Shown piece by piece: positions 12,206 through 43,791 of a DNA stretch of 46,371 bases (positions are counted from its first letter, which is position 1; each line of letters starts with the position of its first letter). The stretch lies in IMG/VR virus record IMGVR_UViG_3300046820_000930, positions 1 to 46,371 of that record; one strand, 5' to 3'. Source of the DNA: a virus. Made by a program: the position numbers and the translations under genes. Under the pieces are notes generated by a model. It saw only the letters and a program-made list of their open reading frames with translations, searched no databases and had not been told where the DNA came from.

Positions 12206-15200
12206 ATGGCATCAAGAATCCTTTTTAAGCGAAATAACAACGCAGGTGTGACACCAAGTGCAGGTTCACTAGTTCAAGGCGAACTAGCAATGAACACTGC
12301 CGACGGTAAAGTCTTTTTAAAGAAAGAAGACGATACTGTACTTGACATTACCAAAACAACATTTGAACGTGATACAAGTATTACTACAAATGATGACGGT
12401 GGTACTACACCTAGTAAGATTGTTGCTAAAGTAGATAACGTAACAGAATTTGAAGTAACTTCAAACGGAACAGAATTTGTTAACGATGTTAGAATTAAAG
12501 ACCAAAAAGGTCTAATTTTCAATGATGCCGCAAATACTAACACAGTAACAATCAAAGGTCCAGACAATGTTGACTTTAGTTACGAAATTAAATTACCACC
12601 ATTCCAACCAATTGATAAAAGCGTACTAGGTCTAGACGGTAATGGTAATCTAGAATGGGGATCACCTGACAGTTTTGGTGGTAACCGCGTTTACGTTTCA
12701 GATAGAAAGGGCGATGACAACAACGACGGTATTAATGCTCCAGTTCGTAGTTTAAAACGTGCCGCACAGATTGCCGCAAGTTTAGGTCTACGTCCTCTTA
12801 CAGATCCAGGACAGGGCAAGTACAATGCTAAACGTTTACTAGAAGCCAACCGTAGTTTCATTCAAAGCCAAGTTATTAAGTGGATTGATGCTAACTTTGT
12901 TAACTTCCTATATGACGAAGAAAAGTGCCGTCGTGACTTAGGCATTATTATTGATGCTGTTGCTTTAGACTTTACTCTAGGAACAAACTATAAAGCCGTG
13001 ACTACAGGTCTTGCTTACCGTCGTGCTAATGCATATACAGTTATTCAAGATCAAATTCTTCAAACTAAGAGTGCAATCTTAAAAGCACAAGAAGAAGGCA
13101 CATCATTAATCACTAACTCAACTGCACTTGGTCGCTACAACACTGCATTTGCAGAAATTGTTGATATTCTTGAAAACGACATTGGTGACGATAGCACAGA
13201 TGCTATTGCATTTACTACACCAGGTAGTGCTTCTAACGAAGAAGTTGCAGCCAAAGACAAATTACAAGCAAACAAAAACTTCTTGAAAGAAGAAGTCATT
13301 GCTTGGATTAACACAAACTATTCTGATTTTACCTATAACGAAGAAAAGTGTGCTCGTGACACAGGTCTATTATTAGACGCCGCCGGTTTTGACGCAGTAT
13401 TGAATACAAACTACAATGCCGTAGTTGCTGGTCGTGCTTATCTACGTGCTAACGCAGACTATCTAGGTAACAATCAAAAGTTACAAACTGTTGCCGCATT
13501 CCAATATGCTAAAAGTCAAGCACTATTAAGTGTTGCAGGAGATGCTACAGCAACTCAACGTGTTACACTAGCATTCGATGAAATACTTGACATTATTAAC
13601 AACGCAGAAGGTGATGATAGTACCGATGCTATCGTATTCAATGCTCCAAGCAATGCTACACAAGATGCAGTCGATGCACGTGATCAACTACAAACAAACA
13701 AGAACTTTTTAGCAGATGCAGTTAGTTCTTATATTAACAAACAATTTGTAGGTTACATCTATAGAGATCAAGTAAAAGATACTTGTGAACGTGACCTTGG
13801 AATTATTATTGATGCCGCACGTTACGATGCCGCATTAGGTACTAACTACAACGCAGTTACCGCAGGACTAGCATACCAACGTGCAAATAGTGACTATGTT
13901 ATCAGTGGTCAAAACTTGCAGACTATTGCAGGTATTCAACATGCTCAAAATTTAGCAGCCACAGCCGTTGCAATTAACGGTACAACAGTAACTAGAGTTA
14001 ATGCCGCATTCTCAGAAGTGCTTGATATTTTAATTAATGGTATACAGTCTACAGAAGAATCTGCAGATGCACTGACATTTACAAACCCAAGTACTGCCAG
14101 TCAAAACGTTATTAACACAAAGAACCAGTTAATTGCTAATCGTGCGTTTGTCAAATCAGAAATTACTTCTTACATTGACAGCAACTTGACCGGCTACACT
14201 TATGGTAGTACCGTACAAACAAAATGCGAGCGTGATATTGAATTTATCACCAGAGCAGCCGCAATGGATGCCGCACTAGGTACAAACTATAATGCAGTTA
14301 CAGCAGGTCTTGCATATCAACGTGCAAATTCTAATTATGTGATCAGCAATCAAAACTTGCAGACTATTGCAGGTATTGAAAAATCCCAAAGCGAAGCACT
14401 AGCACTGACTAGTGATTCAACTTTTGAAACACGCTATCAGTCTGCTATTACCGAAGTAATTGATATTATCCGTAACGGTAGCACATCGACTGAAGATGCC
14501 GCAAATGCATTAGTGTTCCCAACACCGACTGGCACTAGTCAAGACAACGTTGATGCAAAAGATCAACTAGTTGCTAACCGTGCATTTATTAAAGCAGAAA
14601 TTACTGCTTGGATCAATACTCAAATTAGTAGTAATTTCTCTCCATTTATAGGATTTAGTTACGATGAAGCAAAGTGTGCAAGAGATGTCGGCTTTATCGT
14701 TGACGCTCTATGCCACGATATTCTTTACGGCGGTAACTGGGCAACTGTTCGTGCTGCCGAAGCGTACTTTGTTGGATCAACTGGACAATTAGGAGCAGGT
14801 CAAGCAGCCGGAACATCTGCGGCTTATGTTCGATTAAAAAATATTGTTGCACAGATTGTTCAGGAACAAACAGTAACAGTATCTTCTGGAAATACTTTAA
14901 CACAAAATACTGCATCGGGTGGTGCTACAAGCACAGAAGCAGATACATTACGAAATTTAATTGATATTATTATCAACGTAATCGATGCTGGTAACACAAG
15001 TGGATTACCAAGTATTACATATCCAAGCATTAGTTGGACAGATGCAAACATTCAAGCAGACCATGGTGCAGTGATTGCCGCATTGTCGACTATTAAATCT
15101 ACCGTCAGCACGTACATTACTAACAGTTTTGTAGGATTTACTTATGACAGTGCCAAGTGCTCACGAGATGTAGGTTATCTTGTTGATGCATTAACTTACG

Positions 15201-18200
15201 ATATTCTATACGGCGGTAACTCGGCCAGTGTAGCCGCAGCCAAGGCATACTTTGTTGGCGCTGTAAGTCAACTAGGTGCTGGCCAAAAAGAAGTTACTGT
15301 TTATGCTTACAAACACTTATCAAATATTTTAGGTAGAATTATTCAAGGTATTGAAATTACCAAGTCTACTGGAAACGTTGAAACTCAATTAGGAACAGGC
15401 CCAGGTGGTAACGGAACAAGTTCTGAAGCATCGGCACTAGCCGCTGACCTACAATTAGTAATCGATGTTATCATTGCCGACGATATCTCAGGATTGCCAA
15501 CCCCAACATATCCTAGTTTAGGTTGGGTTAATGCTAACATTGTTAGTGCAACAAACTCATTAAACAGTTCTAAGGCAAGTATTATTACTAATACTAGCAC
15601 ATATCTAACAACAACATTTGATGCATTTTCCTACAATCAAACAAAGTGCGAACGTGATGTAAGATATATTATTGACGCATTAACCTATGATTTGTTATAT
15701 GGTGGTAACACTGCTACACGCACAGCCGCAAACGCATATTGGGTAGGCGCTGTAACGCAAGTACCAGACCAAATCTTCCAAACAAAGAAAGCATTTGAAT
15801 ACCTAGCAACTATCGTTGACAATGTATTATTAGGTACATCAGTTACACCAAGTCAAGACCGTGCAGTTTACACTAAAGGATCTACTTCTAGCGATGCATT
15901 TGCAGTTACAAGTTGGTCTGGAAACACATTAGTTTTAACAGCAACAGGTAATGCTAACGGCACTGAATTTACAGGTAAATTTACAGCACTAGATGGCACA
16001 GAACCGTACGACATTTACATTAACGGTACAAAAGTATCTGTTAGCAACACAGTTATCAGCAGTACAATTACATTAACCACAGACAAAACACTTGCTCAAA
16101 CTTTAGGTGCTACAACAACTACAGCAGATGTTGTTAACGTTAGTTTCATTGAAGCATACAGTGGTGCTAGTCAAGATACTGCTACATACGGTGCTGCCAG
16201 TGCAACACAAACAGCAGCCGCAACTGCTCTACTAAGCATTATTACAAACGTAATCGAGAACGGTGTCAGCGTACTACCAACAGCAGTTAACCCAGATTTA
16301 ACCTGGGCAACTTCTGGATTACAAAATGCACGTTTAGAACTAGTTGCAGATCGTCAAACAATTATTGACGGAACTATCGACTACGTACAAACAACATTCC
16401 AAGACTTTGTCTATGATGAAGTACGATGCAGTCGTGACGTAGGATATATTGTTGATGCTATTACCTATGACGTATTATACGGCGGTAACAGCGCAACAGT
16501 TGATGCAGCCAACGCATATTGGATTACTTTAGACGGTAGTACATACGACACACAAGTACCTAATCAAGAAAGTGTAACATCTCTTGCTATTGATAGATTG
16601 TCATACCTAGTAGATAAAGTTGTTCGTGGAGTAACGGTCACTGATACTTATCAAAACGTTGTTACACAAACTACCAGCGGAAGCAATGCAACTACAGTTG
16701 AAGCAGGCATACTAACTGATTTGTTAGGTATTATCTCTGGTGTTATTGTCAACGGTATTGGTACAATACCAGCAGTTGTTGATCCAGATGTAAGTTGGGT
16801 ATCTGGTGCTATCACAGCAAACTACAATGCTTTCCGTACAACAAATAGAGAAGCAATTATTGACAACGTTGTCACTTATATTGCAGATACATTTACAGGA
16901 TTTACCTACAACAGTGCTATTTGTTCACGTGACACAGGATTAATTGTTGACGCAGTTATTCTTGACTTTATCCTTGGCGGTAATGAACGAAGCGTTGAAG
17001 CAGGTCTTGCTTACTATGAAGCAGGCAACACAAGCGCGGCATTAGTAGTCAGTGATCAAAGATTTGAAACAGCAGAAGCCAACAAGTATGCTAAGAAAAT
17101 CTGTAAACAAATTGTACAGAACCAAACAATTAGTCCGTTCTTCCAGCCATTGGGCGGAGAACCAACACAGGTAAAATATCCAAGTATCAGTGGTGCTGCC
17201 GCAGTTAACGATATTGAAACTTTATTCAATACTATTATTAGTATTTTCGAAGGATATCCTGCACCGACAGTAGTAGCAAACGCATTTAATCAGATTCCTA
17301 TTACTATCAGCGTTGCCGCAGGTGACTTCTACATTGACAACCCAATTATTATTCCAGACAAAGTTTCTGTAGTTGGTGACAGTCTACGTTCTGTGGTTGT
17401 TCGTCCATTGAACGCAGGTAAGGACATGTTCCGTATTCGTAACGGTGCGTACATGACTGGCTTTACGTTCCGAGACGGTCTAGATGAAAACCTAGTTCCT
17501 AACTACACATTTAACTGGTGTGTAGCATTCGACGATCCGACAGACGACACAGTTGACCGTTCTGGTTACTTTGGTCTACGTAAGACTAAACCACAAATTT
17601 CTTTATCACCATATATTCAGAACTGTTCTATTATTTCGTTCTTAGGTGGTAATGGTATTTGGGTTGACGGTAATAAGATTGTTGATCCTAACATCAGTCC
17701 TCCCGGATTTGAAATTGAACAAGAAAACCCAGTAGATGGTCCAACACCTCCACAAGGTAAGTCTATGGTTGCCAACGCATTTACCATGGTTTCCTTCGGT
17801 GGCACAGGTTGGTTATGTAGTAACGATGGTTATGCGCAGATCGTGTCCTGTTTCCAGATTTTCTGTTTGAACGGTTCATATACACAGTCAGGCGGTTACC
17901 TATCTATTACTAACTCTGCTACAAACTTTGGTTTGTATGCTCTACGTTCAAGCGGTTTCAGTCCAACAGCATTCTCTTTTGATAGAGGTTATGTTGCGGC
18001 AACAGGTACCAGCGGTGGTAGAATTACACTGACTACACTAGGTACAAACCGTGTTCCGATTCCGCAGTATGTTTTAAAATTCCGTAACGCAAGCACCGAC
18101 GCAGACGTAACCAGTAACTTTAAAGTTGCAAGTACTGAAATTAGTTTCAACTCTAATGCGTTTGATGCTATTAGTGGACGTACAGGTACTATTACAAACA

Positions 18201-21200
18201 TTGCAGGCAGTGGCCCTTACACAGCAACATTAACTGGCGTTAATACTACAGGTATTGTTACTGGTAAGTATCTAACAAAAACTGGTGGTGACGGTACATT
18301 AGGTAGTGTAACAACAGTTACCGCAGTGCGCTCGGGTGCTAATGAAATCGATATTTCTAGCAACGGCGTTATTGTAGCCGGCGCATTACCATTAGAATTT
18401 GCTGTAGGTGGTGCAATTAATACAGTTTCTAACTTGATCACTTTACCTGATCATGGGTTGTTAAACGGAGATAGTGTTTATTACTATGCAGATTTTAACA
18501 TTCCTGGAAACACTAGCGTGTTAGGTCTAATTGATAACGGTATCTACTATGTTAAAGTTATCAGTTCTAATACAATTCAGTTATTCAACGACAACGGCCT
18601 AGCATATCCAACAGACATGCAAACTGGCGGTATAGGTACACATCGTATTGCCAAGAACGTTGAAGAATTCTTCGTTGAAACAATTGAAAGCAGCCACAAC
18701 AGTTATCAAACATTGACACTGCCAGAAGTAAGCCCAGACTATGTATTTGCGATTGGTAGTGCAATTCAAGGTACAACTGGTGCATTTACAAACAATGCCT
18801 ATGTTTTAAGTTGGAATACAACAACCCGCGAACTTGTTGTTTCAAACGAATTAACTACAATCGGTGAAGAACAACAACGTATTAAGTTTACTACAAGTTC
18901 TATAATTCTTAACGATCAAAGCACTTATAGTTCTATTCCAGTTTCTGCGGTAGAAGATCGTACTGATCTATATACTGCTAAATTTAAAACAAACTCAACA
19001 CGTACAGCAAGTCAAATTCAAAACCCAAGCGGTGCAATTGGTTTCAAATGTAACTTCCACCGTCCAAGTATTTTGAACAGTTCTTCACATACTTGGGAAT
19101 ATGCAGGTTCTGGTACAGACTATAATGCTCTACCACAAAACGGTGGACAAACAATTCTTGCTTATCAGCAGTTCACTGAATTACCAGGACGAGTTTATAC
19201 TTCAGGTACAAACGAAATTGGTGACTTCTTAGTTGGTGACTTTATTAAGGCTGAGAACAACACTGGTAAGATTACATTCCGTACTGAAGTTACAGTTGGA
19301 CAGTTGAACGTTCTACGACTATCATTGTCTAGTATTGAAATTAGTGCTATCAGTAACGACACTGGTTTAGGTGATAACGAAATTGGTGGTGCAAGTGATA
19401 CACGACTAGCAACTCAAAAGGCTATTCGTAGTTTCATTAACAACAGATTAGGTAACGTACTTGACAAGAACGTTTCTACTAACGCAGTTGCTGGTGCTCT
19501 TGTTCAGTTGAATAGTGCAGGTCAAATTAACGTTGACTTGATTCCTCCACTACGTGGCGTTACAACTTATTCAACAACTGAGTTTGGTGGACGTTTATTA
19601 CTAAGCGAAAAGATTCCTACAGTTGAAGTATTCAACGGTGATAACGCCAGCGAAACTTATCAACAACAAACTCTAACACTAACTGGCGGTACACTAACCG
19701 CAGTTGTTGGAGATTTGATTACACAAAACGGAACAACTGGTAGTGGTTATGTTAAAGAAGCAGTCACTAGTGGAACAACTGTAACACTATATGGTGTAAC
19801 AGGTACATTCACTGAAGACAATGCCGCACAAACTATTCGTAAGAATGGTACAACAGTAACAGGTGTTTATCCAAGTGGATTGACTGCCGTTGCCGAAATT
19901 GTTGACAACTACTTCTTGAACAACGACACAAGCAGTCAGTTCTTAATTCTAGATGGCCCAGGCTATGACTTTACAGTTGGTAATACAATTACCAGCGCAA
20001 TTGGTCTTGCTCAAGGTGAAATTACAGAATATCGTGAAGGTGTTCTATATGGACTAAACTTGAATTCATTGCTTGGAGGTAGTAACTATACTCCAGCAAG
20101 CGGTAGTCAAACATATCTAAATGTTTCTCTAACTAATGTCAGTGGCAGTGGTACAGGTGCAAAAGCAGATATCACTGTTACTAACGGTGCAGTCACAGAC
20201 GTTACTATCCGTAGCGGCGGTAGCGGATATGCATCAGGCAACGTACTAAGTGCTAGTGCAAGTAACATTGGCGGCACAGGCAGTGGATTTCAAATTACTG
20301 CTAACCGTGCAGATACAAGATTATATGTTGACCTAGTTGGAAGTAAGACTAAATTCAACGCCACTAGCGCAGTCAACGATTACTTTGAAGATAACAATGC
20401 ACCAGTAGTATCAATTGCTAATCTTGCTACATTTGCAACATTTAGTTTTAGTGGAAACACAGATATTAATACCGGTACTGGTAATATTATCCTAACAAGC
20501 CACGGTTTAACTAACGGTGACATTTTACAGTATAGTAACCAAGGCAACACAAGCATCGGTGGGTTGACCAACAACCGTGCATATTTTGTCAAAGTTATTA
20601 ACTCAAATGCAATTCAACTTTATACTAACTACGCATTAGGTGCGGCAGATCAAGTATTGTTGACATCAACTTCTACAGGAACTCATACACTAACACGTAA
20701 CACTGTAAGTATTGGTTCAACAAGTCTAAGTTTCCTATACAAAGCCGCACACGGGTTCAACACAGGTGATGCTGTTTACATTGAAGGCGCAGACTTGCCA
20801 GCAGGTTTAATTGCTGATTCTTACTACTATATTGGTAGTGTAAGTACAAATACATTTACAGTTCATACAAGTAGAACAAACGCACTAGCAAGTGTGGGCG
20901 GCACTACAACTGGTAAAATTACATTCACTGATGTAGGAAGCGGAAGTGTTACATTTACAATTCAAAACGTTGCATTTACAGGTACTGTAAACGACAGTAG
21001 TAAACTAGCCGGTAACTGGGGCACTGTAAGCGTAAGCAGTTTAGATGCAAGTAACATTGTATCTGGTGTATTTGCTACAAGCCGTCTAGCAGGCACAGGA
21101 ACTGCTAACACACAAACATTCTTGCGTGGTGACAGTTCATGGAGTTTTGCTGTACAAGGTATTCGTAAGAATGCTGGAAGTTCTATCAGTCTAAGCGGCG

Positions 21201-23908
21201 ATAGTTACAGTGACGGCGGAGACACAGTTTACTACAACCAACCAATTCTTGACGTTGACAAAGTTGACGGGGATGGCGGTACTCCTAACTTTACAAACGT
21301 AGGTGTTGCGGCATTTGACAAGAGTCAATTTGCAGTCGGTAAGCCAACTAACATTCCAGCAGACACTGGTAACGTAAGTATTAAACCTGGTGTTATTGAT
21401 GCTGGTTTCCTAGGCGGACAACCAGGAACATACTACACTAACCCAGATAACTTGAGCAAGGCTGTGCCGATTCTAAAAGGCGGTACAGGTCTAACAACTT
21501 ATCTAGAAGGCGACATGCTTTATGCAGGTGCCGGCGGTTCTCTAACACAGTTACCAATTGGTGGTATCAGTAGTGTGTTAAGTTCCAACGGTGTTATTCC
21601 AAGTTGGACAAGTAACTTAACACTAGCCGGTGGTGTAACTGCTGGTAATGGTGTATTCAACAGTGATGTAAACAGCACAAATAGTACTAGTGGTTCTCTA
21701 CAAGTTCAAGGTGGTGCAGGTATTACACGTAACTTGTTTGTTGGTGGTAACTTATCCGTTAGTGGTTCTATTAACTTCAACAGTTCGTTGAGTATTACTG
21801 GTGACGATGCTGTTATTACACTAAGTCCAGGCGGAGCAGGTACTGTGAGTATTCAACCTGCTGGCGTAACAACAATTGGTACATTGGGTGTACAAACAAC
21901 ATTAGTTGGTAACCTAAGTGCTATACAGAACCAGCAGACTATTAACTTTAGCCCAACTGGTACAAACAGTGCTATTACATTGAATAGTGCTGGTACATTA
22001 ACTCTCGGTGCAGCCGCTGCCGGTGGTATCAGTGTTACTACAAACATCACCAGCGCAGGCGATATCGCAGTCAACGGCGGTGATATCACAACAACTGCAA
22101 CAACATTTAACCTAGTTAATGATACTGCTACAACAGTTAACTTTGCTGGTGCTGGTACTGCAATTACAATTGGTGCAAACGGTACTGGTACTACTACAGT
22201 TAGAAATAACCTAACAGTTAGTGGCGACTTAACAGTTAGTGGTACTAACACTACTATCAATGCAACCGCAGTAACAATTAGAGATAATGCAATTCAATTA
22301 GCCAACGTGGCTACACCAACTAACGCAGTTGCCGATGGTGGTGGTATTATCCTAAGAGGTACTACTGACAAGACTATCTTATGGGATGTAACTAATACTA
22401 ACTGGACACTAAGTGAACACGTTAATATTCCAACAGGTAAAACCTTTAAGATTAATAACACTAACGTATTAACTAGTACAGGTTTAGGTAGTGGTGTTAT
22501 TAGTTCTAGTTTGACCAGTGTTGGTACATTGACTAACGGTACATGGAACGCAAACGTAATTGCTGGTCAGTACGGTGGTACTGGTGTTGCTAACACAGGT
22601 AAGACAATTACCCTAGGTGGTAACTTAACTACTTCTGGTAGTTTTAACATTACTCTGACAGCAACTAACGTTTCTAGCGTTACATTACCAACAAGTGGTA
22701 CACTAATTGGTACAAACGATACAGGTACTGTTTCTAACAACATGTTGGCTGGAAGTATTCCAAACAACAAGTTGGCAAATAGCAGTATTACTCTAAACGG
22801 TACACTGGTGAACCTAGGCGATTCTGTAACAGTTACAGCCAACTTGGCCAACAACTTAACAGTTGGTACCGGTTTACAGTATGATAGCGGCACAACATTC
22901 AACGGTGGTGCGGCACGTACAATCAGTATTACTAGCGCAGTTGCTACACTAACCGGCACTCAGACATTTACTAACAAGACATTTACCGATAGTTCTACAT
23001 TGTTCCAAGACGATGTAGACAATACTAAGAAAATGGCATTTGATGTTAGTGCTGTAAGTGCTAATACAACACGTACATTGTCGGTGCCAAACGTAAGTGG
23101 TACAATCGTTACTACAGGTGATACTGGTAGCGTAACAAACACAATGTTGGCTGGCAGTATTGCTAACGCTAAGTTGACTAACAGCACAATTAGTGGTGTT
23201 AGCCTAGGCAGCAACTTGTTTAGTTTAACAGCAGGTTCATTCTTAACATGGAGTGTTGGTACTACCTATAACGGCAGCGCCGCAAGTACACTGGCAGTTA
23301 ACGCAACTAACGCTAACACAGGTAGTACAGTTGTTGCACGTGATGCATCAGGTAACTTTAGTGCAGGCACAATTACTGCTTCATTAAGTGGTCTAGCAAG
23401 TGCCGCAACTAACATCCGTGTAAGTGCTACAGACTATGCAGGTAATACTGCAAGTAGTGCCAACACAGTTGCTCTACGTGATGGTTCAAGCGACATTTAT
23501 GCTAACTTGTTCCGTGGTACAGCAACAACAGCACGTTACGCTGACTTGGCAGAAAACTACCTAGGTGATGTCAAGTACGAAGCAGGCACTGTTGTTATGT
23601 TTGGCGGAGATGCTGAAGTAACATTAGCCTCAGACGGAACACGTCAAGTAGCAGGTGTTGTTTCTACAAATCCAGCACACTTAATGAACGACGGACTAAA
23701 AGGCGAAACTGTAGTTGCTCTAGCACTACAAGGTCGTGTACCATGTAAGGTAACTGGTAAGATCCGCAAGGGTGATATGCTAGTTGCCGCAGGTAACGGA
23801 CACGCTCGTGCAGAAGAAGATCCACGTTTAGGCCAAGTAATTGGTAAAGCATTGGAAGACTTCGATGGCGAAAGCGGAGTTATTGAAGTAGTGGTAGGAC
23901 GTATGTAA
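12206..23908 (+). CDS. giant adhesin / tail fibre, 3900 aa, with a beta-helix split by nine tandem repeats
   Basis: The N-terminus (MASRILFKRNNNAG ... QGELAMNTADGKVFLKKED) is a fibre-type attachment module. Residues about 160-195 (NRVYVSDRKGDDNNDG, then APVRSLKRAAQ) are the first strands of a pectate-lyase-like beta-helix. The helix resumes only near residue 1698 (AAGDFYIDNPIIIPDKVSVV) and runs to about 1990. Between them lie nine repeats centred on Cys-x-Arg-Asp (C241, 382, 527, 674, 824, 985, 1148, 1408, 1573). Further on are Gly-rich GSGY modules (about 2624-2690), one TTFNLVNDTATTVNFAGAGT repeat, fibre linkers (VVARDASGNFSAGTI) and a C-terminal domain (about 3779-3900, ADLAENYLGDVKYEAGTVV ... 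ALQGRVPCKV) that I recall as a common T4-like fibre end. GAGG precedes the ATG. A role in host recognition is inferred. Confidence 0.85.
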   Translation: MASRILFKRNNNAGVTPSAGSLVQGELAMNTADGKVFLKKEDDTVLDITKTTFERDTSITTNDDGGTTPSKIVAKVDNVTEFEVTSNGTEFVNDVRIKDQKGLIFNDAANTNTVTIKGPDNVDFSYEIKLPPFQPIDKSVLGLDGNGNLEWGSPDSFGGNRVYVSDRKGDDNNDGINAPVRSLKRAAQIAASLGLRPLTDPGQGKYNAKRLLEANRSFIQSQVIKWIDANFVNFLYDEEKCRRDLGIIIDAVALDFTLGTNYKAVTTGLAYRRANAYTVIQDQILQTKSAILKAQEEGTSLITNSTALGRYNTAFAEIVDILENDIGDDSTDAIAFTTPGSASNEEVAAKDKLQANKNFLKEEVIAWINTNYSDFTYNEEKCARDTGLLLDAAGFDAVLNTNYNAVVAGRAYLRANADYLGNNQKLQTVAAFQYAKSQALLSVAGDATATQRVTLAFDEILDIINNAEGDDSTDAIVFNAPSNATQDAVDARDQLQTNKNFLADAVSSYINKQFVGYIYRDQVKDTCERDLGIIIDAARYDAALGTNYNAVTAGLAYQRANSDYVISGQNLQTIAGIQHAQNLAATAVAINGTTVTRVNAAFSEVLDILINGIQSTEESADALTFTNPSTASQNVINTKNQLIANRAFVKSEITSYIDSNLTGYTYGSTVQTKCERDIEFITRAAAMDAALGTNYNAVTAGLAYQRANSNYVISNQNLQTIAGIEKSQSEALALTSDSTFETRYQSAITEVIDIIRNGSTSTEDAANALVFPTPTGTSQDNVDAKDQLVANRAFIKAEITAWINTQISSNFSPFIGFSYDEAKCARDVGFIVDALCHDILYGGNWATVRAAEAYFVGSTGQLGAGQAAGTSAAYVRLKNIVAQIVQEQTVTVSSGNTLTQNTASGGATSTEADTLRNLIDIIINVIDAGNTSGLPSITYPSISWTDANIQADHGAVIAALSTIKSTVSTYITNSFVGFTYDSAKCSRDVGYLVDALTYDILYGGNSASVAAAKAYFVGAVSQLGAGQKEVTVYAYKHLSNILGRIIQGIEITKSTGNVETQLGTGPGGNGTSSEASALAADLQLVIDVIIADDISGLPTPTYPSLGWVNANIVSATNSLNSSKASIITNTSTYLTTTFDAFSYNQTKCERDVRYIIDALTYDLLYGGNTATRTAANAYWVGAVTQVPDQIFQTKKAFEYLATIVDNVLLGTSVTPSQDRAVYTKGSTSSDAFAVTSWSGNTLVLTATGNANGTEFTGKFTALDGTEPYDIYINGTKVSVSNTVISSTITLTTDKTLAQTLGATTTTADVVNVSFIEAYSGASQDTATYGAASATQTAAATALLSIITNVIENGVSVLPTAVNPDLTWATSGLQNARLELVADRQTIIDGTIDYVQTTFQDFVYDEVRCSRDVGYIVDAITYDVLYGGNSATVDAANAYWITLDGSTYDTQVPNQESVTSLAIDRLSYLVDKVVRGVTVTDTYQNVVTQTTSGSNATTVEAGILTDLLGIISGVIVNGIGTIPAVVDPDVSWVSGAITANYNAFRTTNREAIIDNVVTYIADTFTGFTYNSAICSRDTGLIVDAVILDFILGGNERSVEAGLAYYEAGNTSAALVVSDQRFETAEANKYAKKICKQIVQNQTISPFFQPLGGEPTQVKYPSISGAAAVNDIETLFNTIISIFEGYPAPTVVANAFNQIPITISVAAGDFYIDNPIIIPDKVSVVGDSLRSVVVRPLNAGKDMFRIRNGAYMTGFTFRDGLDENLVPNYTFNWCVAFDDPTDDTVDRSGYFGLRKTKPQISLSPYIQNCSIISFLGGNGIWVDGNKIVDPNISPPGFEIEQENPVDGPTPPQGKSMVANAFTMVSFGGTGWLCSNDGYAQIVSCFQIFCLNGSYTQSGGYLSITNSATNFGLYALRSSGFSPTAFSFDRGYVAATGTSGGRITLTTLGTNRVPIPQYVLKFRNASTDADVTSNFKVASTEISFNSNAFDAISGRTGTITNIAGSGPYTATLTGVNTTGIVTGKYLTKTGGDGTLGSVTTVTAVRSGANEIDISSNGVIVAGALPLEFAVGGAINTVSNLITLPDHGLLNGDSVYYYADFNIPGNTSVLGLIDNGIYYVKVISSNTIQLFNDNGLAYPTDMQTGGIGTHRIAKNVEEFFVETIESSHNSYQTLTLPEVSPDYVFAIGSAIQGTTGAFTNNAYVLSWNTTTRELVVSNELTTIGEEQQRIKFTTSSIILNDQSTYSSIPVSAVEDRTDLYTAKFKTNSTRTASQIQNPSGAIGFKCNFHRPSILNSSSHTWEYAGSGTDYNALPQNGGQTILAYQQFTELPGRVYTSGTNEIGDFLVGDFIKAENNTGKITFRTEVTVGQLNVLRLSLSSIEISAISNDTGLGDNEIGGASDTRLATQKAIRSFINNRLGNVLDKNVSTNAVAGALVQLNSAGQINVDLIPPLRGVTTYSTTEFGGRLLLSEKIPTVEVFNGDNASETYQQQTLTLTGGTLTAVVGDLITQNGTTGSGYVKEAVTSGTTVTLYGVTGTFTEDNAAQTIRKNGTTVTGVYPSGLTAVAEIVDNYFLNNDTSSQFLILDGPGYDFTVGNTITSAIGLAQGEITEYREGVLYGLNLNSLLGGSNYTPASGSQTYLNVSLTNVSGSGTGAKADITVTNGAVTDVTIRSGGSGYASGNVLSASASNIGGTGSGFQITANRADTRLYVDLVGSKTKFNATSAVNDYFEDNNAPVVSIANLATFATFSFSGNTDINTGTGNIILTSHGLTNGDILQYSNQGNTSIGGLTNNRAYFVKVINSNAIQLYTNYALGAADQVLLTSTSTGTHTLTRNTVSIGSTSLSFLYKAAHGFNTGDAVYIEGADLPAGLIADSYYYIGSVSTNTFTVHTSRTNALASVGGTTTGKITFTDVGSGSVTFTIQNVAFTGTVNDSSKLAGNWGTVSVSSLDASNIVSGVFATSRLAGTGTANTQTFLRGDSSWSFAVQGIRKNAGSSISLSGDSYSDGGDTVYYNQPILDVDKVDGDGGTPNFTNVGVAAFDKSQFAVGKPTNIPADTGNVSIKPGVIDAGFLGGQPGTYYTNPDNLSKAVPILKGGTGLTTYLEGDMLYAGAGGSLTQLPIGGISSVLSSNGVIPSWTSNLTLAGGVTAGNGVFNSDVNSTNSTSGSLQVQGGAGITRNLFVGGNLSVSGSINFNSSLSITGDDAVITLSPGGAGTVSIQPAGVTTIGTLGVQTTLVGNLSAIQNQQTINFSPTGTNSAITLNSAGTLTLGAAAAGGISVTTNITSAGDIAVNGGDITTTATTFNLVNDTATTVNFAGAGTAITIGANGTGTTTVRNNLTVSGDLTVSGTNTTINATAVTIRDNAIQLANVATPTNAVADGGGIILRGTTDKTILWDVTNTNWTLSEHVNIPTGKTFKINNTNVLTSTGLGSGVISSSLTSVGTLTNGTWNANVIAGQYGGTGVANTGKTITLGGNLTTSGSFNITLTATNVSSVTLPTSGTLIGTNDTGTVSNNMLAGSIPNNKLANSSITLNGTLVNLGDSVTVTANLANNLTVGTGLQYDSGTTFNGGAARTISITSAVATLTGTQTFTNKTFTDSSTLFQDDVDNTKKMAFDVSAVSANTTRTLSVPNVSGTIVTTGDTGSVTNTMLAGSIANAKLTNSTISGVSLGSNLFSLTAGSFLTWSVGTTYNGSAASTLAVNATNANTGSTVVARDASGNFSAGTITASLSGLASAATNIRVSATDYAGNTASSANTVALRDGSSDIYANLFRGTATTARYADLAENYLGDVKYEAGTVVMFGGDAEVTLASDGTRQVAGVVSTNPAHLMNDGLKGETVVALALQGRVPCKVTGKIRKGDMLVAAGNGHARAEEDPRLGQVIGKALEDFDGESGVIEVVVGRM
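12848..17120 (+). repeat. nine tandem Cys-x-Arg-Asp repeats coding for an insert in the beta-helix
   Basis: Each unit reads roughly A(x)I-x-W-I-x(4)-F-x-Y-(D/N)-x(2)-K-C-x-R-D-x-G-x-I-x-DA-x(3)-D-x-LG-x-N, then A(G/A)-x-AY. Cys-to-Cys spacing is 141, 145, 147, 150, 161, 163, 260 and 165 residues. The first four units carry an LGTNYxAV core and the next four an LYGGNxAxV core, so the array splits into two subfamilies; the ninth (ILGGNERSVEAGLAYY) is mixed. The long 260-residue interval holds an extra beta-rich piece of about 100 residues. Confidence 0.82.
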
Positions 23909-27357: not shown

Positions 27358-30300
27358 ATGGCACAACAAAAGATTAATATCGGCACGGGGGTAAACACCA
27401 AAGATGGTGATATTATCCGTGATGCGTTTGACAAAGTAAATGATAACTTTGACGAACTTTACGTTAGATTAACAGATAGTGGTCTAGCAGGACCACAAGG
27501 ACCGCAGGGCGAACAAGGACCCGCAGGGCCACAAGGGCCACAAGGTTTAACTGGTCCTAAAGGCGATACTGGAAACACCGGACCTGCAGGTCCCGCAGGA
27601 GCCACAGGTTTACAAGGACCGCAAGGATTACAAGGTGTTAAGGGCGATAAAGGTGATAAAGGCGACACTGGTGACCAAGGACCTACTGGACCACAAGGTG
27701 CTGCCGGAACACCTGGAGCAACAGGACCACAAGGTGCTACTGGACCACAAGGTGCTACTGGACCACAAGGTGCCACCGGACCTGCAGGACCACAGGGTTC
27801 TACAGGCGCTACAGGCGCCAAAGGTGATACTGGAGCACAAGGTGTTTCAGTAACACTACAAGGTACAAAAGCAACAATAGCAGACTTACCAGCCGCACCA
27901 CTAGATCCGCAAGATTTTGCTGGACACGGTTGGATTGTTACTACAGGCGATGGCAACACACATTTAGATGGTAGTCTATGGTTTTGGAACTTAACTGACG
28001 GTGCATGGAATGATGTTGGACCTATTGTTGGGCCACAAGGTGACCCAGGTCCACAAGGTGACCCAGGTCCTACAGGTGCTACAGGACCACAAGGCGATTC
28101 AGGACCAGCAGGCGCTGACGGTGCCGCAGGCGCCACAGGACCTGAAGGACCTACAGGTGCCACAGGAGCAAAAGGCGACAAAGGAGATCCAGGCGATCCG
28201 GGCCCAGCCGGAGCAGATGGTGCAGATGCGCTATGGAATTGGCAGGGTGATTATAATGACGGTCCGCAATATCAAGAAGGCGATATTGTTGCATACCAAG
28301 GATCAACTTATCGTAGAAATGGATTTGGCAATAGTGTAGTAGGAATTCATCCAACTAATGTAACTTATTGGAGTGTAGTAGCAGAGCGTGGCGCAGATGG
28401 AGCACCTGGAGCAGATGGTGCAGATGGTACAAACGGCACACCTCTTACTGTTATTACTACTGACGATATTGAATTATCAAATATTTCTACATTGGCATTT
28501 ACTGGTGCAGGAGTTACTACAAGTTCAGTAGGTAATGCTGTTACTATTGATATACCAGGCGGAGGCAATGCCAATACTGGTAACATATCATTCGACACAG
28601 GCGGTACGGCAGCAGGCATTTACAACAACCAAGGTGGTGGAATTTTTATCAGCAACTTCAGTTACTTGACTGCTGAAGCAGAAACAGCCTGGATAGAAAT
28701 TCCAGCAGGCAACGGCACTAATGCGTTACGAATTGTTCAAGAACAAGGTAATATTGTATTAGGAGCAACTGATAAGGCTTGGATGTTTGACACCAGTGGT
28801 GATTTAACTGTTCCCGGTGATATTAAAAAAGGTGACACTAGTCTTAGCCTAAACGCTAGTAACATTGGATCCATTGATCTAAAAACTACAAAGCCAAGTT
28901 TAACACAGGTTGCCGCTAACGAAAACATTGATAATAATAATATTATTTGGGTCTCTAAAGCGACCTATCCTAACTTCCTTGCCAATGTAACTATTGATTG
29001 GCAACTACTATGGGGCGGACAACGTTATAATATTGCCAGCATTGTAGACGAATCGCCGATACCAGGTTTTATTGCCGTTACCATGGCTGACAATTCGCTG
29101 TCAATCGGCTACAGAACATTGGTAGAATTCCGTAGTCCTATAGTTTTGAATACTTGGGGATTTGCCAACGATGGTATCTTAACGCTGCCATACAACAACT
29201 ATTTAGAAACTACTGACATTAACTTAAAAGTCGGTTCAGGCGGTGCCGTTACTATTCGTAGCAATGCCGCAGATAGTTTAACTACAAAAGCGTGGCAGTT
29301 TGGCACAGATGGTGCGTTAACAGTTCCTGGAACCATTGTATCTAACAATGGGTTTATTGTAATGTCAGAGGTCGGCGCAACAAGTTCGGGTGTATATCTT
29401 GACGGTGATGCAACTGCCTCTGGAAATGCAATATTGTTTGCTACCAAGGATGCTATTGTCCGTACTAATAACAACGGAACTCTTAAAGATTGGACATTTG
29501 GTGCAGATGGAAACATGTCCACTCCAGGCAGTATTCTTCCTAATGCTGACAATGTTTACGATCTAGGTAGTCCTAGTCTACGTTTCCGTCACGTTTATGT
29601 TGGTCCAGGGTCTGTAACTATTGGTGGTAGTGTTATTACGGAATCTACAACAGGTAAACTAGTTCTACCAGGTGTTACTCGTGCTACTACATTGTTTGCC
29701 GATGAAGTAGAAGATGTAGCAGATCAAACACGCACCTGGAGTGCTGGCCCATACTTGCTAGACGCATATCAGTTTGCGTTCTCTCAGGGTCTTGTAAACC
29801 CACCAAACACGTATGTGCCTGCGGACTACACTATTGACGCTATCAACGGTGATGGTTACATTGACGGCATTACCATTGATCCCCCAGGAGTATGGACGCA
29901 GGACGTTGCTGACTACAACCGTGCTAATAGAATGTATGCTTATATAGGCACAAACATCCAAGAACCATTTAATCCTAGTAACTGGGTTACTATTCCGTTT
30001 GTAGTTCGTGCCAAGGCTAACGATGTTGAATATGAATTTAACACAGGCGGCGGCGGTGCTGACTTAGGCGATTTTACCATCGACGGTAGCACACTTGAAG
30101 CAGAACAGATGACTGTCAAGACCAACGATGGTGATATTACTATCGAGTCCGACAGTGATGTATTCATTAAAACATCTAGTGGCAACAAATACTGGTCATT
30201 TGCCAATGACGGTAATTTAACACTACCAGAAGGCGGTGATATTCTCAACAGCAATGGTTCAAGTGTATTAGGTGGCGGTGGCAATACTGGCGATGTATTA

Positions 30301-31992
30301 TTTGATGGTCCTACTTTATCTGTCAAAGACGGTGATGGATATCGCCAAGGCTTCCTAAACTTACAAAATGAAGGCGACGAAGTTGTTTTAGGTTCTGATA
30401 CTGCGGCACCGATAAAAATTGGTGTTTATAATGCTCAAGGTGGAAATAAGGTCTGGACATTTGGCGCAGATGGTAATTTAACATTACCAACCAGTGGTCA
30501 ATTAAGAGTACCAACTTATGGTTACCTTGGTGTGCTTGATGACACGTTTTCTATTGTTGACAACAGCGATGGTGCTGTGGTTATTGCCTCAGCCAGTGAC
30601 AGTCATCGTTGGACATTTGAAACAGGTGGCGATTTAAGATTGCCAGCAGGCGGTGACATCGTTGACAGCAATGGCAATTCAGTATTAGGCGGCTCCGGTG
30701 GAAATAGTGACAGATTAGTAAACGGCAATAAAGAAGTTGTATTAGATGATGAAGGCGATTTATACTTGCCAACTGGCGGAGCATTGTGGTTTAGTTACGG
30801 TTACATTGATCAAGATACTGACAGAGACAACGATGCCCTGCGTATCAGCGGCGGCAACGGTGTAACAATCAAAGCAGACGAAGATGGTAAAACTTGGCGT
30901 TTTAACAACGACGGTAGCATTACATTCCCAGATGCTACAGTTCAAACAACAGCCTACACTGGACAAGCAGATGGAAGTTCTACAGTAGCCCGTCAAGACA
31001 CAGCACCTAATGCTGGCAACGGCACATTATGGTTCAACACCATAGAAGGTAGACTATACATCAAGTATAACAATCAGTGGGTAGATGCGGCTCCGTTGAT
31101 GATGCCTGTGCCAGACACTGACATTGATGTTAACTCAATCACATTCGCAGATGCTACGGTATTAACTTCAGCATACACTAACAAGTTGGTTAATGGTGTT
31201 CAGGAAGTCGCACTGGCCAGCAATGGTGTTTTACGATTAGCCGATGACCTTATTCTACCTCGTGGCAGTAGATGGATCAAAGACTGTGAAGGCAGTGGCG
31301 GCACAACCAGTATGCGTTGGTATAACGTTCCCTCTGACACCCAAGAAGTAGAATTATTCCGCGTCTACACAGGCGGCGAGGGAAATCTAAACAACACAGA
31401 ACGAGCAAAGATCAGTTTTGAGTGGCAAGACGCTGAAACCAGTGGTTTATCTATTACAGCATTTGATCGCACCGAAGGGGAAAATACATACAAGTGGAGT
31501 TTCCTTGGCGACGGTAGTTTGAAGTTCCCAGCAACGTCTGACTATAGAATTAGAGAAGGCGAACCTGGACTGGTCGTAACTAGTGAATTAGGCGTTGCTA
31601 TTACCACTGATTCAGGTGGAAGTGCGAAAAATTGGATATTTACTCCCAACGGTACTCTAATGCTGCCGGGCACAGTAATTAACAGCACCGTGGCAAAAAC
31701 AGGTGGACCTTTAGAAACACCTACAGCCATAGACCTAACTAAATCAGTGAACAAACTCGCAGATGGTGAGTACACATTGGCTGACGGCGTTGAAGGACAG
31801 ATCATGTATTTGGTTAGACAGACAGGATCGGCAAAAAATAATATCAGGGTAAATGTTGCCAATGCTCGTATTGACGGTGCATTATATACAACCATTGACT
31901 ACTATCCTTTTGAAAATATACCTGATGTGAACATGAGTACCTTGATCTACACAGACGGTGCTTGGCAAGCAAGTAACGGCGGGTGGGATTAA
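27358..31992 (+). CDS. collagen-like tail fibre, 1544 aa
   Basis: The N-terminal region ([13 protein letters not shown], then [19 protein letters not shown]) is a typical phage fibre attachment segment. Gly-X-Y collagen repeats fill residues about 45-161, 225-290 and a short run near 345-360. Between the first two is a small domain ending [17 protein letters not shown]; after the second comes a CBM5/12-like piece ([20 protein letters not shown]). The long C-terminal half repeats [12 protein letters not shown]- or GDLTVPGDI-type strands many times. It also has a box [20 protein letters not shown] near 1222. Collagen segments form trimers in phage fibres, so this is probably a trimeric host-recognition fibre. 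It has its own late promoter and no strong Shine-Dalgarno. Confidence 0.85.
27490..28230 (+). repeat. collagen-like Gly-X-Y coding repeats (two main blocks)
   Basis: Block one is about 27490-27843 and block two about 28030-28230, with units such as GGACCACAAGGTGCTACT repeated in tandem (GPQGAT). A 62-residue globular piece separates them. The tandem DNA units can change copy number by slippage. Confidence 0.85.
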
Positions 31993-32018: not shown

Positions 32019-32222
32019 ATGGCAATAACATTTCCAACATCGCCCACAGTAGGGCAAGAATACGTAGCAGATAACTCTGCCACTTATCAATGGACAGGTA
32101 GCCGCTGGAGCACACAGGTTCCTTGGCTAGCAGGACGATCACAATATGTAGCAGACGGCGGGGTTGCCGATCAAACCTACAACGACAATTTAGACAACAC
32201 CCTTGGTGGAGGCGGAGCATAA
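32019..32222 (+). CDS. small virion-associated protein, 67 aa
   Basis: The first half (FPTSPTVGQEYVADNSATYQ, then WTGSRWST) is the stand-alone version of the Trp box found inside many larger proteins here, with the common form FPxSPxxGxxYxxxxxxYxWxGxxW. The second half is Asp/Asn-rich and ends in GGGGA. It may be a small fibre accessory or trimerisation unit, but this is inferred. It begins after a late promoter, and its stop is one base from the next start, so the two genes are likely translated together. Confidence 0.7.
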   Translation: MAITFPTSPTVGQEYVADNSATYQWTGSRWSTQVPWLAGRSQYVADGGVADQTYNDNLDNTLGGGGA

Positions 32223-32223
32223 T

Positions 32224-35200
32224 ATGACAACAAGAATTAAATTACGTAGAGATACAGCGGCCAACTGGACCACAGCGAATCCAATCTTAGCCGCTGGTGA
32301 ACCAGGTCTAGAATCAGACACTGGCAAGATCAAGTACGGTGACGGTGTTACCCGTTGGAACGCACTTGAACACAGTGGCGGTGACACACTGACCAATGAG
32401 GGTTCTATCACCGTTCAAACTGGTGATGCGGACCGTTGGTTTGTTAGACTACGTAAGGAAGATGACAGTTTAGCCTTTGACAGAGGTGTTATTGTCCTTA
32501 GCACTAACTATGACAGCGAGGGCAATGCTCTAGTAGTAGCACAGATTGACCTCAACACAGATGGTATTGTGGTATTCAAGTTTACACCAGCAGGTGAACT
32601 AGTTTGGAAAAAGTCAGTTGACGGATTCAGCAACAACTACTGGGTAGACAGTTATAACGCTGTAGTTGACAGCAATGACAACTTGTTGTTTGTTGTATCA
32701 ACAGAATCTAACACAGCAAATATTGTTAAGGTCAACGGATCAACAGGTGCTGTGGTGTTCACTGAAGGTCTAGACATTGGCACAAGTTATGATATCAATG
32801 CTATTGCTGTTGACAGCAATGACAACATCATTGTTGGTGGTCGTGTTTACCTCGGTGATTTCGACCTTGACACAGCATTTGTAGTTAAACTAAGTTCAGA
32901 CGCTACTACAATCACTTGGCAAAAAGAATTAACTGTTGACGGTGGAAATTCAGAAATCTTTGGCCTAGCCATTGACTTCAACAACGACATTATCGCCACA
33001 GGTAGTGCCAGTGTTGATCATCAACTTAACGGTAATACAGTAACAGACGAAGAAATGCTAGTGGCCAAGATTGCTGCCGCAGGCACATTGTCTTGGCAAA
33101 AAACAGTGGCTCTTGAAGCAGATATGCGTTCCGGTTCAGCATTTGGTGTCAGTGTTGACTCAATTGGTAATATCTATGTTACAGGCACATACCTTGTTGA
33201 CAACGCAGAAGCAGATACAGGTCCAAGTGATAACAAGAAAAGCAATGCTGTGGTGATATTTAAGATGACCACACTGGGTGTTATGGTATGGGATCGCAGA
33301 ATTGGTCCAGGACCATGTGCTTGGGTGGGCGTTAACACAGCAGTAGGCGACGATGGCGACTTGTACATATACGCCAGCACCTACGAATACAATCCACTAG
33401 CCCAAGTTGATTTTGGCAGTTCTGGTGTATACACTAGTCGTTTGGCATTGGCTCGTTATAACAAGACAACTGGTGCTGTTATTTGGCAAAGTTATTTTGA
33501 CAATCCATTGGCACAAGAAATTCCAGGATATGCTAATGCTCCTTGGGGTGCTCAGGGTGCTGATTTGTTGTCTGTGAGAGATGGCAAGATTCTTATTGGT
33601 GGTTCTGTGAGATTTGGTATAAGCGACCAGGATGCCGGAATGCCATGGAGTGGTTCTGCTACACACTTCAATCAAGGTTTCCTAGCACAGTTTGACACTG
33701 ATGCTACCTACTTCTCAGCAGATGGCTGGGAACTAAAAACAAGCCGTATTCCAGGCAAGTTAACTAACACACTAGTAGCCACTAGTAGCGCACTAGACTG
33801 GCAAGATACTCACACTACTATTAACACAGCCGCAGGTGCTGGTTTTGAAGAAGTTGACGCTCCTGTCAGTGTAAGACGCACAGCCAGCAAGACCAACACT
33901 TGGACATTTGGCAAAGACGGCACATTTACTGCTCCAGCAGATGCCAACATCAAGTTACAACAAACACAGTTGGGCTTTATCAACATGTATGGTAAGATGC
34001 TTGACCGTAACGAAAGTATTTGGTATAACAGCGTGTGTCACGACACAGAAGGCAATGCCTATGTGTTAAGTGGTAATAATTATGTCAGTGATAGAGCACA
34101 CATTCAGAAGTTTAGCCCAGAAGGCGAACTGCTATGGAATCGTCAACTACACAGTGGAGAAGGTGCTGAATTCTACATAGCCTGGGACGGTAATGAATAC
34201 ATTACTGCTACTATTGACAACGGTGGTAGTGGTTATAAAATAGGTGACAAGATTGTTCTACCAGGTAGCAACTTTGGCGGCACTGATGGTGTTAACTCTC
34301 TAACGTTAGAAGTAACCGAGATTACTAACGTTACAGACAATGTAGGTTCCATTCAAGCAGTTAGCATCGTGTCTGGTGTTGCGGTAGATGGCACATCGGA
34401 CACTGGTAACATTGCTGATCCATACGATGACGCAGAATGCTATCCACGAGCATTGGCATTTGATCCAGTAACTGGTAACATTGCTGTGTTGGTTACTACG
34501 CCTACATACAACGGTGACACACTCGACAACCAGTGGGATCAGGGTCTTATACTACAAATTGATTCAGGGTCTGGCGTAGTTGTAAAAACAATAACTCTAG
34601 CAGACGAAGGCGACATTTACTCCTACGATATCGCAGTAAGTTCAACAGGTAAACTGGCCATTGCGGGTGAAAAGTATAATGAATATCAAGATTACGGAGC
34701 CGTTACTCCAATAACAGGTAGCGATACTGACATCCTATGGGTCTCTAAATCAGACATTGATGCTGAACACTATCCAGGAGAACCAAACGGCTCGTTCAGT
34801 GATTGGTATCTAACTGGCAGTAACTTTACTGGCAAAGCACGAGTTACAGACGTCAACTATTACACAGGTCTAAGTGGAACTACACAGCAAGGTAGCGGTG
34901 CGGTGTTTACTATTACTAATAACGGTAACAGCACTTACTCTGCTGGTATTACCAGCGGCGGCTCAAACTATGTAGTGGGACACAAGATTAAAATCTTAGG
35001 CACAAGCCTAGGCGGTGCTACACCGGACAATGATATTGTTATCACTGTACAGGCTGTAGACGGAAGCGGTGCTATTACTGGTGTAGGCAATTCAGGAACA
35101 GCCGCAACTATTACTCCAACTCCTTACGCTTTTAATTCAAGTAACGATTACTTACAGTGGTCTTACCCGGGTGACGGTCAAGGATTCAACGCCGGCTCTC

Positions 35201-43300: not shown

Positions 43301-43791
43301 ACGCAACAGCAGTTGGTTATCTAACTGGCGAAGGCGAATTTAAGTCTGTGGCTCTAAACGAAGGTCAACGCGACACACTATACAATGTAAAAGTTAACCC
43401 AATTACATTCTTCGTAGGTAGCGGTCTAGTTAACTTCGGACAGAAGACTCGTGCTCGTAATGCAAGCGCACTAGACAGAATCAACGTAGCACGTTTGGTA
43501 ATTTATCTACGTAGCCAGTTGAACAAACTAGCAAAACCATACATCTTTGAACCTAACGATAAAATCACTCGTGATGAAATCAAGCAACAAGTCGAAAGTC
43601 TATTGCTAGAACTAGTTGGCCAAAGAGCACTGTATGACTTCTTGGTAGTCTGTGATGAAAGCAACAACACACCTAACAGAATTGATAGAAATGAACTATA
43701 TGTTGATATTGCTATCGAACCTGTCAAGGCCGTTGAGTTCATTTACATTCCAGTACGCTTGAAGAACACTGGCGAAATCGCTGGACTATAA
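40381..43791 (+). CDS. 18: tail sheath protein, gp18-like, 1136 aa
   Basis: The N-terminus (MALTSPGVQVSVIDES ... TSQRELADLFGDP ... YGLQAAYSFLGVANSVLIAR) and C-terminus (DRINVARLVIYLRSQLNKLA, PYIFEPNDKITRDEIKQQ, YDFLVVCDESNNTPNRIDRN) are those of the T4 gp18 sheath family. These parts polymerise around the tube and contract on infection. T4 gp18 has 659 residues, so this protein is about 1.7 times as long. The excess lies in the middle and includes four Trp boxes (about residues 133-155, 367-400, 614-640 and 674-703), each like GDLWIDTSDIDNYPQIKRYD. They should lie on the outer surface, where gp18 tolerates variable domains. Preceded by its own late promoter and AAAGGAG. Confidence 0.92.
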   Translation: MALTSPGVQVSVIDESFYTPAEPGTRPLVIVASAANKRNAAGTGTAQGTLAANAGKVYTVTSQRELADLFGDPTFRVDNNNNPIHAGELNEYGLQAAYSFLGVANSVLIARADIDLNALEPQAEAPGGEPQDGTFWLDTSTTAWGIFEWNGAAASTRNGQSFVAKTPLIVLEASQLTIDGPKPSVGRIGEYAVAVGTNALSEGEQEDTISNVDQSTSHEVSIYYKNRSGVWVKVGTPEWTASHPTITASPASSSASWSAGTYTLEIFLDGAVSSLPVTSMTTATDLSDVAAAITNDIDGVSATYANGVLEIFYSGDSVKLGGSLVQGDPLTLGIDPAKTYYTPKLQISKHTQVPSYKVRDSEPRPTGSVWIKTTEPNAGARWRVKKYNGNTQLWENVESPIYATAHAALAEVDKTGGGINVPLNSAFVEFNFNQYTKPQADFRVLRRFRTGETVLRSKEITSAGITPAGTYTMQVAESIVGSAVLNSRAIPVTVAGNATDSETIASAINGAGFTNIVASVDSLNRVVVTHSTGGEIRFADFDDSTAFVGTKLQFDKNSNVYTVREEGSTTNGEGTYQYVASNWIPMTITPDTATVVRQSYYISNDNPQTLVADGALWYSSVVDEVDIMVHNGNTWVGYRNYDHGRGAGVTNPIGPIVAASEPAEQSDGTVLEEGDLWIDTSDIDNYPQIKRYDYTNKRWVLLDKSDQTTENGVLFADARWNEDGLTADPASIEELLTSNFIDFDAPDPALYPRGMLLWNLRRSGFNVKKFKKNYINTLDDNLRYKASQSDEGDAPTSGDSMEQYYPHRWVTESGNQADGSGSFGRFAQRKVVLQSIQALVNSNQEIRDTERNGFNLLACPGYPELIGEMISLNNDRGLTAFVIGDTPARLTPDATTINNWGTNAALALEDNEKGLVSSDEYLGVFYPWGFTSDNAGRDIIIPPSHMIMRMIALSDQVSFPWFAPAGTRRGGITNATAVGYLTGEGEFKSVALNEGQRDTLYNVKVNPITFFVGSGLVNFGQKTRARNASALDRINVARLVIYLRSQLNKLAKPYIFEPNDKITRDEIKQQVESLLLELVGQRALYDFLVVCDESNNTPNRIDRNELYVDIAIEPVKAVEFIYIPVRLKNTGEIAGL

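Follow-up and report, generated by a model that had tools for sequence, protein, structure and literature searches.

A tail-fibre protein encoded by an uncultured T4-like myovirus holds, in a loop of its beta-helix, nine tandemly arranged phycobiliprotein-superfamily domains, which probably bind bilin and decorate the fibre. The protein, P0001 (3900 amino acids, aa), is encoded in a 46,371-nucleotide stretch of viral DNA (IMG/VR record IMGVR_UViG_3300046820_000930, positions 1 to 46,371; hereafter the window). The insertion, its variation in copy number, its all-helical fold (by structure prediction), its remote homology to phycobiliproteins and the retention of the residues of the bilin site are established by the comparisons reported here.

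The motif Cys-x-Arg-Asp (C.RD) occurs exactly nine times in P0001, at aa 241, 382, 527, 674, 824, 985, 1148, 1408 and 1573, and all nine copies lie between a first strand (VYVSDRKGDDNNDG, aa 162) and the continuation of the beta-helix (AAGDFYIDNPIIIP, aa 1704), the rest of the protein having none. The units recur with a period of 141-165 residues, apart from one spacing of 260 (Cys 1148 to Cys 1408) which arises because unit 7 contains about 110 additional residues of beta-rich sequence. A hidden Markov model (HMM) detects all nine units with domain E-values below 1e-3 each, and they pair one to one with the repeats of a nine-copy relative (L004) at 78-98% identity over a 112-residue core; the window repeats are thus homologous units and not chance resemblances. 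Motif count and HMM both bear out the original prediction of nine such repeats in an insert of about 1500 residues, with the insert proper spanning roughly aa 199-1696. The single Cys per unit that had been described does not hold for units 5 and 9, each of which has a second one (aa 836 and 1633).

The same helix is encoded at 80 IMG/VR loci. At many of them (L018, L020, L037, L044 and more), strand 1, the helix KKALQLAS and the continuation VAAGDYVVDNPVIIP adjoin directly, and the proteins read ...GGNRIYVS..GDDNNDGVSAPVQSIKKALQLASALVYTSGGSVNGTRVAVMVAAGDYVVDNPVIIP without an insert; the split of the window helix is therefore an insertion. The split had initially been proposed from a comparison with the neighbouring protein P0002 (at position 6008), and this comparison was valid, as the uninterrupted orthologue L018 aligns over strand 1, helix and continuation with the helix start of P0002 (E = 2e-8). 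Judging from their contiguity in the uninterrupted orthologues, residues 160-195 would pack on the later helix. Other orthologues have 2, 3, 5, 7 or 9 C.RD units in the same loop, some of the contigs being truncated. Relatives with seven copies miss window repeat 4 and have a single unit in place of repeats 5/6, and in those with three copies the r1, r5/6 and r9 types are each represented by a single unit. These patterns indicate that the array grows and shrinks. The same domain is also found in a second, independent fibre loop of orthologues that lack the first-loop array (L048, aa 473-627; L076, aa 466-953, three copies), and several of these second-loop copies have lost the C-R-D triad. The uncultured contigs of L026 (G003, 399,796 bp) and L230 (G040, 121,982 bp) have 44 and 36 repeats, respectively, most of them within single open reading frames (ORFs) of 6682 and 6792 aa.

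In a phmmer search of the raw window insert against the PDB sequences, four matches were obtained, with three phycocyanin alpha chains first (E ~0.06-0.1) and a cytochrome P450 at E 1.5. An alignment profile was needed because single window repeats miss PF00502, the Pfam phycobiliprotein family. We used an alignment of 44 repeats, A1, which comprises C.RD-bearing units only. Of the 36 matches of the A1 profile among the PDB sequences, 33 were phycocyanin or phycoerythrocyanin chains (best E 5.7e-5) and the other three were weak. The profile places CxRD on Cys84/Arg86/Asp87, the bilin-binding site of phycocyanin, with the following GG at equal spacing. In phycocyanin, the bilin is linked to the Cys by a thioether, and the Arg and Asp hold the propionate and the pyrrole nitrogens. 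The motif had thus been noticed correctly at the outset, but its identity as the bilin-attachment motif had been missed. PF00502, which was built without phage data, matches nine of the 44 repeats (best 9.8e-7). On whole phages it gave matches in 20 of 37 records, all of them repeat-bearing and in giant ORFs only, six of the records scoring above the Pfam gathering cut-off; no matches were obtained in the nine repeat-free isolates or controls.

Structure prediction of an isolated repeat, suggested alongside the original prediction, gave a helical, phycobiliprotein-like fold. The AlphaFold2 model of repeat 6 (aa 946-1092) had a mean predicted local distance difference test score (pLDDT) of 87 and a predicted template-modelling score (pTM) of 0.82, and all 50 PDB matches listed by Foldseek were phycobiliproteins (probability 1.00, template-modelling score up to 0.74). 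For a three-repeat orthologue (L013, 781 aa, pLDDT 83), the model consists of a strand, a helix, three helical domains and then beta rungs. Foldseek matched this model to beta-helices (PL6 lyase, CBA120 TSP2, phi29 gp12) and to phycobiliproteins (probability up to 0.99), with unrelated low-probability matches also among the results. The helices of the model occupy residues 51-500 and the beta rungs begin at 511, so that the repeats do not themselves form rungs of the beta-helix and the insert is, as had been proposed, an all-helical array unlike the beta structure around it. Of the two roles first considered for the insert, that of an independent array standing out from the fibre suits the results best, whereas anonymous helical spacers do not describe units that are phycobiliprotein-fold domains.

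Several features of these matches speak against the homology or limit its extent. Taken singly, the nine window repeats stay below the Pfam gathering cut-off of PF00502, and the Foldseek E-values among the matches listed for repeat 6 are modest (1.6e-3 to 0.07, at probability 1.00). The strongest sequence match of the A1 profile spans only about the first 60 positions; beyond these, the correspondence depends on the match in fold, together with a small number of Pfam matches at the C-terminal end. Furthermore, the N-terminal X/Y helices, which serve alpha-beta assembly in phycobiliproteins, are apparently absent, as the profile match begins at phycocyanin residue 38, which is repeat position 5. 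An unrelated helical bundle whose CxRD resembles the bilin site by chance would agree with the low sequence identity of the fold matches (12-19%) and with the failure of the Pfam model on single window repeats, but sequence profile, Pfam model and fold search agree on family and motif register and no other family is matched to a comparable degree, which makes such convergence very improbable. We hold with high confidence that the repeats share the phycobiliprotein fold and are homologous to phycobiliproteins. Since the profile match leaves no room for X/Y helices, we classify them as remote phycobiliprotein homologues and not as antenna subunits.

The C.RD triad is intact in all nine window repeats. 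Its invariance in A1 is an effect of how these units were selected, and conservation was therefore recounted on all HMM-detected repeats. Among 112 non-redundant repeats, C, R and D are all kept in 97 (87%), all lost in ten and mixed in five; at 60% redundancy, the 75 remaining repeats comprise 63 kept, seven lost and five mixed. Joint loss of the triad would be expected in 0.15 repeats if the three residues were lost independently and never exceeded three in 20,000 shuffles, compared with the ten observed, a count that kinship among units inflates somewhat. In units without the triad, D54, N60 and Y70 are still conserved. C, R and D therefore act as one ligand site that is separable from the fold. 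The same homology would also be compatible with a virion free of pigment, in which the fold was co-opted for a spacer arm or adhesin as a robust helical unit and CxRD is kept for folding. An array of variable copy number suits an arm of adjustable length, the fold survives triad loss in the ten repeats mentioned, and the X/Y helices appear to be missing; on the other hand, retention of the triad in most of the diverged repeats and its loss as a block indicate a ligand site, and the repeats co-occur with genes for bilin attachment or synthesis, as described below. We consider a pigment-free array possible but on the unlikely side, and lean slightly towards the view that each unit binds a bilin at the CxRD Cys in virions.

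The distribution of the repeats was assessed by a search with a consensus repeat, as had also been suggested, and the repeats were indeed found in other phages. Matches were obtained in 335 of 50,697 phage records, all of which are named cyanophages except for one 'Marine' record, with hosts taken as written in the records. In 17 isolates, giant tail proteins hold 3-11 copies per genome: S-PM2 has nine, P-HM2 has four in its gp7 baseplate protein, and in Syn9 they lie in a fibre ORF. The repeats are missing from T4, from the pelagiphage HTVC008M and from the podovirus P-SSP7. A scan of 84,980 bacterial and archaeal genomes, which is sensitive to close relatives only, revealed none of two window repeats.

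Among 26 isolate genomes, 17 have the repeats together with the bilin-lyase gene cpeT and nine have neither, without exception. S-PM2, Syn1 and S-RSM4 have cpeT just upstream of their giant, repeat-bearing 'short tail fiber' gene, and in S-CAM1 cpeT is close to the repeat-bearing fibre gene by coordinates; these four phages form one clade. The contig G007, which is nested among repeat-free phages, has both repeats and CpeT. In uncultured contigs, a haem oxygenase gene adjoins that of a PcyX/PcyA-like reductase. Ten of ten contigs of 128-400 kb that were picked only for a PcyX-like reductase are repeat-bearing, with 3-44 repeats. Related contigs chosen otherwise frequently have repeats as well, however: of seven portal-selected control contigs, five are repeat-bearing and none shows a reductase within 66-150 kb, this set being too fragmentary for a test of the association between PcyX and the repeats. 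Two further observations concern these loci. In S-PM2 and Syn1, cpeT is separated from the repeat-bearing giant fibre gene by a gene for a 2-oxoglutarate (2OG)-Fe(II) oxygenase (L096, 2953-4889; L097, 2439-3645), an enzyme whose substrate could be the fibre or the bilin, and three repeat-bearing contigs (L141, L142, L143) have a cassette of ClpS, haem oxygenase and PcyX/PcyA-like bilin reductase, in which ClpS and the haem oxygenase were recognised by eye.

A number of results count against a pigmented fibre. On a tree of the gp20 portal protein, the agreement between repeats and cpeT reduces to 2-3 independent changes, which are in the same direction and not significant. P-SSM2 (NC_006883) and S-SSM7 (NC_015287) have a bilin reductase and lack both repeats and CpeT; bilin synthesis is therefore not strictly coupled to the presence of repeats. 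Neither CpeT nor a reductase is seen in four contigs that bear repeats (G001, G006, G008, G009). No bilin genes were seen in the window, which is a fragment and was searched for CpeT only; CpeT was likewise not found in the 80 flanks. The lyase CpeS was found in none of the phages tested.

In the arrangement that we propose, the array would extend from a loop at the surface of the tail-fibre beta-helix, and a trimeric fibre would thus present three arms of nine domains. Each unit would carry an open-chain tetrapyrrole (bilin) on its CxRD Cys through a thioether bond, and Arg and Asp would hold the bilin's propionate and pyrrole nitrogens, as they do in phycocyanin. The pigment might come from the host or be made by the phage via haem oxygenase together with PebS, PcyA or PcyX, and its loading would in many phages be aided by the phage CpeT lyase. 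Alternatively, the domains could act inside the infected cell as phycobiliprotein mimics that capture host bilin or tie up lyases or linkers during fibre synthesis. The host cytoplasm, in which fibre proteins are synthesised, contains bilins, and phage cpeT and pebS are without a settled target (PMC3037559). However, the domains are parts of proteins whose annotation is tail fibre or baseplate wedge (the fibre ORF of Syn9, gp7 of P-HM2) and so end up in the virion, and a sponge would need no fusion to a virion protein; we regard such a role as very unlikely.

In a pigmented fibre, the likeliest use of the bilin, on a speculative view, would be to stabilise the arm and make the fibre responsive to light, thereby gating adsorption. 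Light-dependent adsorption is reported for several marine cyanomyoviruses (PMC2984593), and modelling of infection data suggested that P-HM2 shows essentially no adsorption in the dark while P-SSP7 is indifferent to light (PMC7112961). The four repeats of P-HM2 and the lack of repeats in P-SSP7 fit this contrast in direction, although two or three phages prove nothing. Light-responsive adsorption through a fibre pigment is thus a speculation that we rate as rather unlikely. The same doubt applies to its broader form, in which virions of cyanophages and related uncultured phages would carry bilin-loaded phycobiliprotein-like arms on tail fibres and baseplates, the phage bilin synthases and CpeT would pigment the phage's own tail, and the resulting photoreceptor would permit adsorption only in the light.

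The features of the insert and of the surrounding protein are compiled in Table 1. The window also has genes for a gp15-like sheath stabiliser, sheath, tube and head-tail adaptor of this myovirus, of which it is a 46-kb fragment. Besides the match given in the table, P0001 matches PHROG 4527 (short tail fiber) and PHROG 701 (virion structural protein); SBP_bac_3, the sole Pfam match of the full-length protein (E 0.037), was rejected as spurious. The N-terminus of P0002 (6056-6148) matches the carbohydrate-binding module family 5/12 (PF02839). Further downstream, a fibre with collagen-like Gly-Pro-Gln repeats and another large fibre with an Mtd_N domain (PF18454) are encoded at 27358-31992 and 32203-37158, so that the locus has at least four giant fibre proteins. 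The tail sheath (40381-43791) is unusually long (1136 aa), and its nearest relatives are those of the jumbo phages Phosso, Atu_ph07 and PA5oct. The hosts of these phages are the proteobacteria Sinorhizobium, Agrobacterium and Pseudomonas, whereas the repeat itself is known only from cyanophages. The gene psbA is absent from the relatives of the window phage, with the exception of G007.

Table 1 Features of the repeat-bearing fibre protein and its neighbour in the window.
Feature	Position	Strand	Basis or remark
Uninterrupted homologous beta-helix in neighbour protein P0002	6359..7123	+	Homology search
Tail-fibre protein P0001, insert-bearing	12206..23908	+	PHROG 5342 tail fiber, E 9e-223
Beta-helix N-terminal part: first strand and capping helix, aa 155-198	12668..12799	+	Contiguous with remaining helix in L018, L020, L037 and others
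Insert of ~1,500 residues, loop between capping helix and next strand, aa 199-1696	12800..17293	+	
Phycobiliprotein-like repeat 1, Cys aa 241	12812..13231	+	HMM; boundaries approximate
Repeat 2, Cys aa 382	13232..13657	+	HMM
Repeat 3, Cys aa 527	13658..14098	+	HMM
Repeat 4, Cys aa 674; missing in 7-copy orthologues	14099..14536	+	HMM
Repeat 5, Cys aa 824	14537..14977	+	HMM
Repeat 6, aa 946-1092, Cys aa 985; unit taken for structure prediction	15041..15481	+	
Repeat 7, N-terminal part, Cys aa 1148	15530..15955	+	HMM
Extra beta-rich stretch of ~110 residues nested in repeat 7 (approximate)	15869..16195	+	Sequence; Cys spacing
Repeat 8, Cys aa 1408	16310..16744	+	HMM
Repeat 9, Cys aa 1573	16805..17251	+	HMM
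Beta-helix continuation, aa 1697 to ~1975	17294..18130	+	AlphaFold2 of orthologue L013; Foldseek: PL6 alginate lyase, CBA120 TSP2, phi29 gp12

The phage units resemble phycobiliproteins (PF00502; phycocyanin alpha, phycoerythrin beta) in the common all-helical fold, in C-x-R-D at the bilin site with its spacing to G-G, and in length (~145-165 aa compared to 160-177 aa for phycobiliprotein subunits). They differ from them in their tandem arrangement within a fibre protein, in the apparent lack of X/Y helices, in an identity below 20% and in a bilin binding that we infer. The beta-helix half has a fold in common with right-handed beta-helix tailspikes and fibres such as CBA120 TSP2 and phi29 gp12 and with PL6 alginate lyase, but in fibres of the window type the first strand and helix are followed by an insertion of antenna-protein-like domains that vary in number from 0 to 9. 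The same repeat occurs in giant tail proteins of T4-like cyanophages (PHROG 5342, 4527 and 701; 'short tail fiber' and gp7-type baseplate ORFs), which are annotated as tail fibre or virion structural proteins with no mention of phycobiliproteins; in its sheath, the window phage comes nearer to jumbo phages. We found no description of phycobiliprotein domains in virion proteins in the openly accessible literature.

The phage bilin genes for CpeT, PebS, PcyA and PcyX, which co-occur with the repeats, have been published as auxiliary metabolic genes serving host antennae. Cyanophages carry functional pebS, pcyA and ho1 as well as cpeT, genes whose purpose has been found puzzling, notably in phages of Prochlorococcus, a host without phycobilisomes (PMC3037559, PMC2984593). 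What phage pebS and pcyA do has been described as a mystery, and the role of cpeT as unresolved (PMC3037559), and the purpose of phage bilin genes has been questioned, with an unknown acceptor being suggested (PMC11480375). Likewise, several cyanophages require light for adsorption by a mechanism that is unexplained (PMC7112961, PMC2984593). A tail in which as many as dozens of phycobiliprotein-fold domains keep their bilin site intact would offer one target for the bilin genes, the lyase and light-dependent adsorption, and this hypothesis can be checked by simple assays on phages that are already in culture. The array is also a striking example of how a fold known from light harvesting can be put to new use in the construction of virions. 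If the pigment is bound, viruses would build coloured, perhaps light-sensitive tails, and the pigment genes of cyanophages would gain a target.

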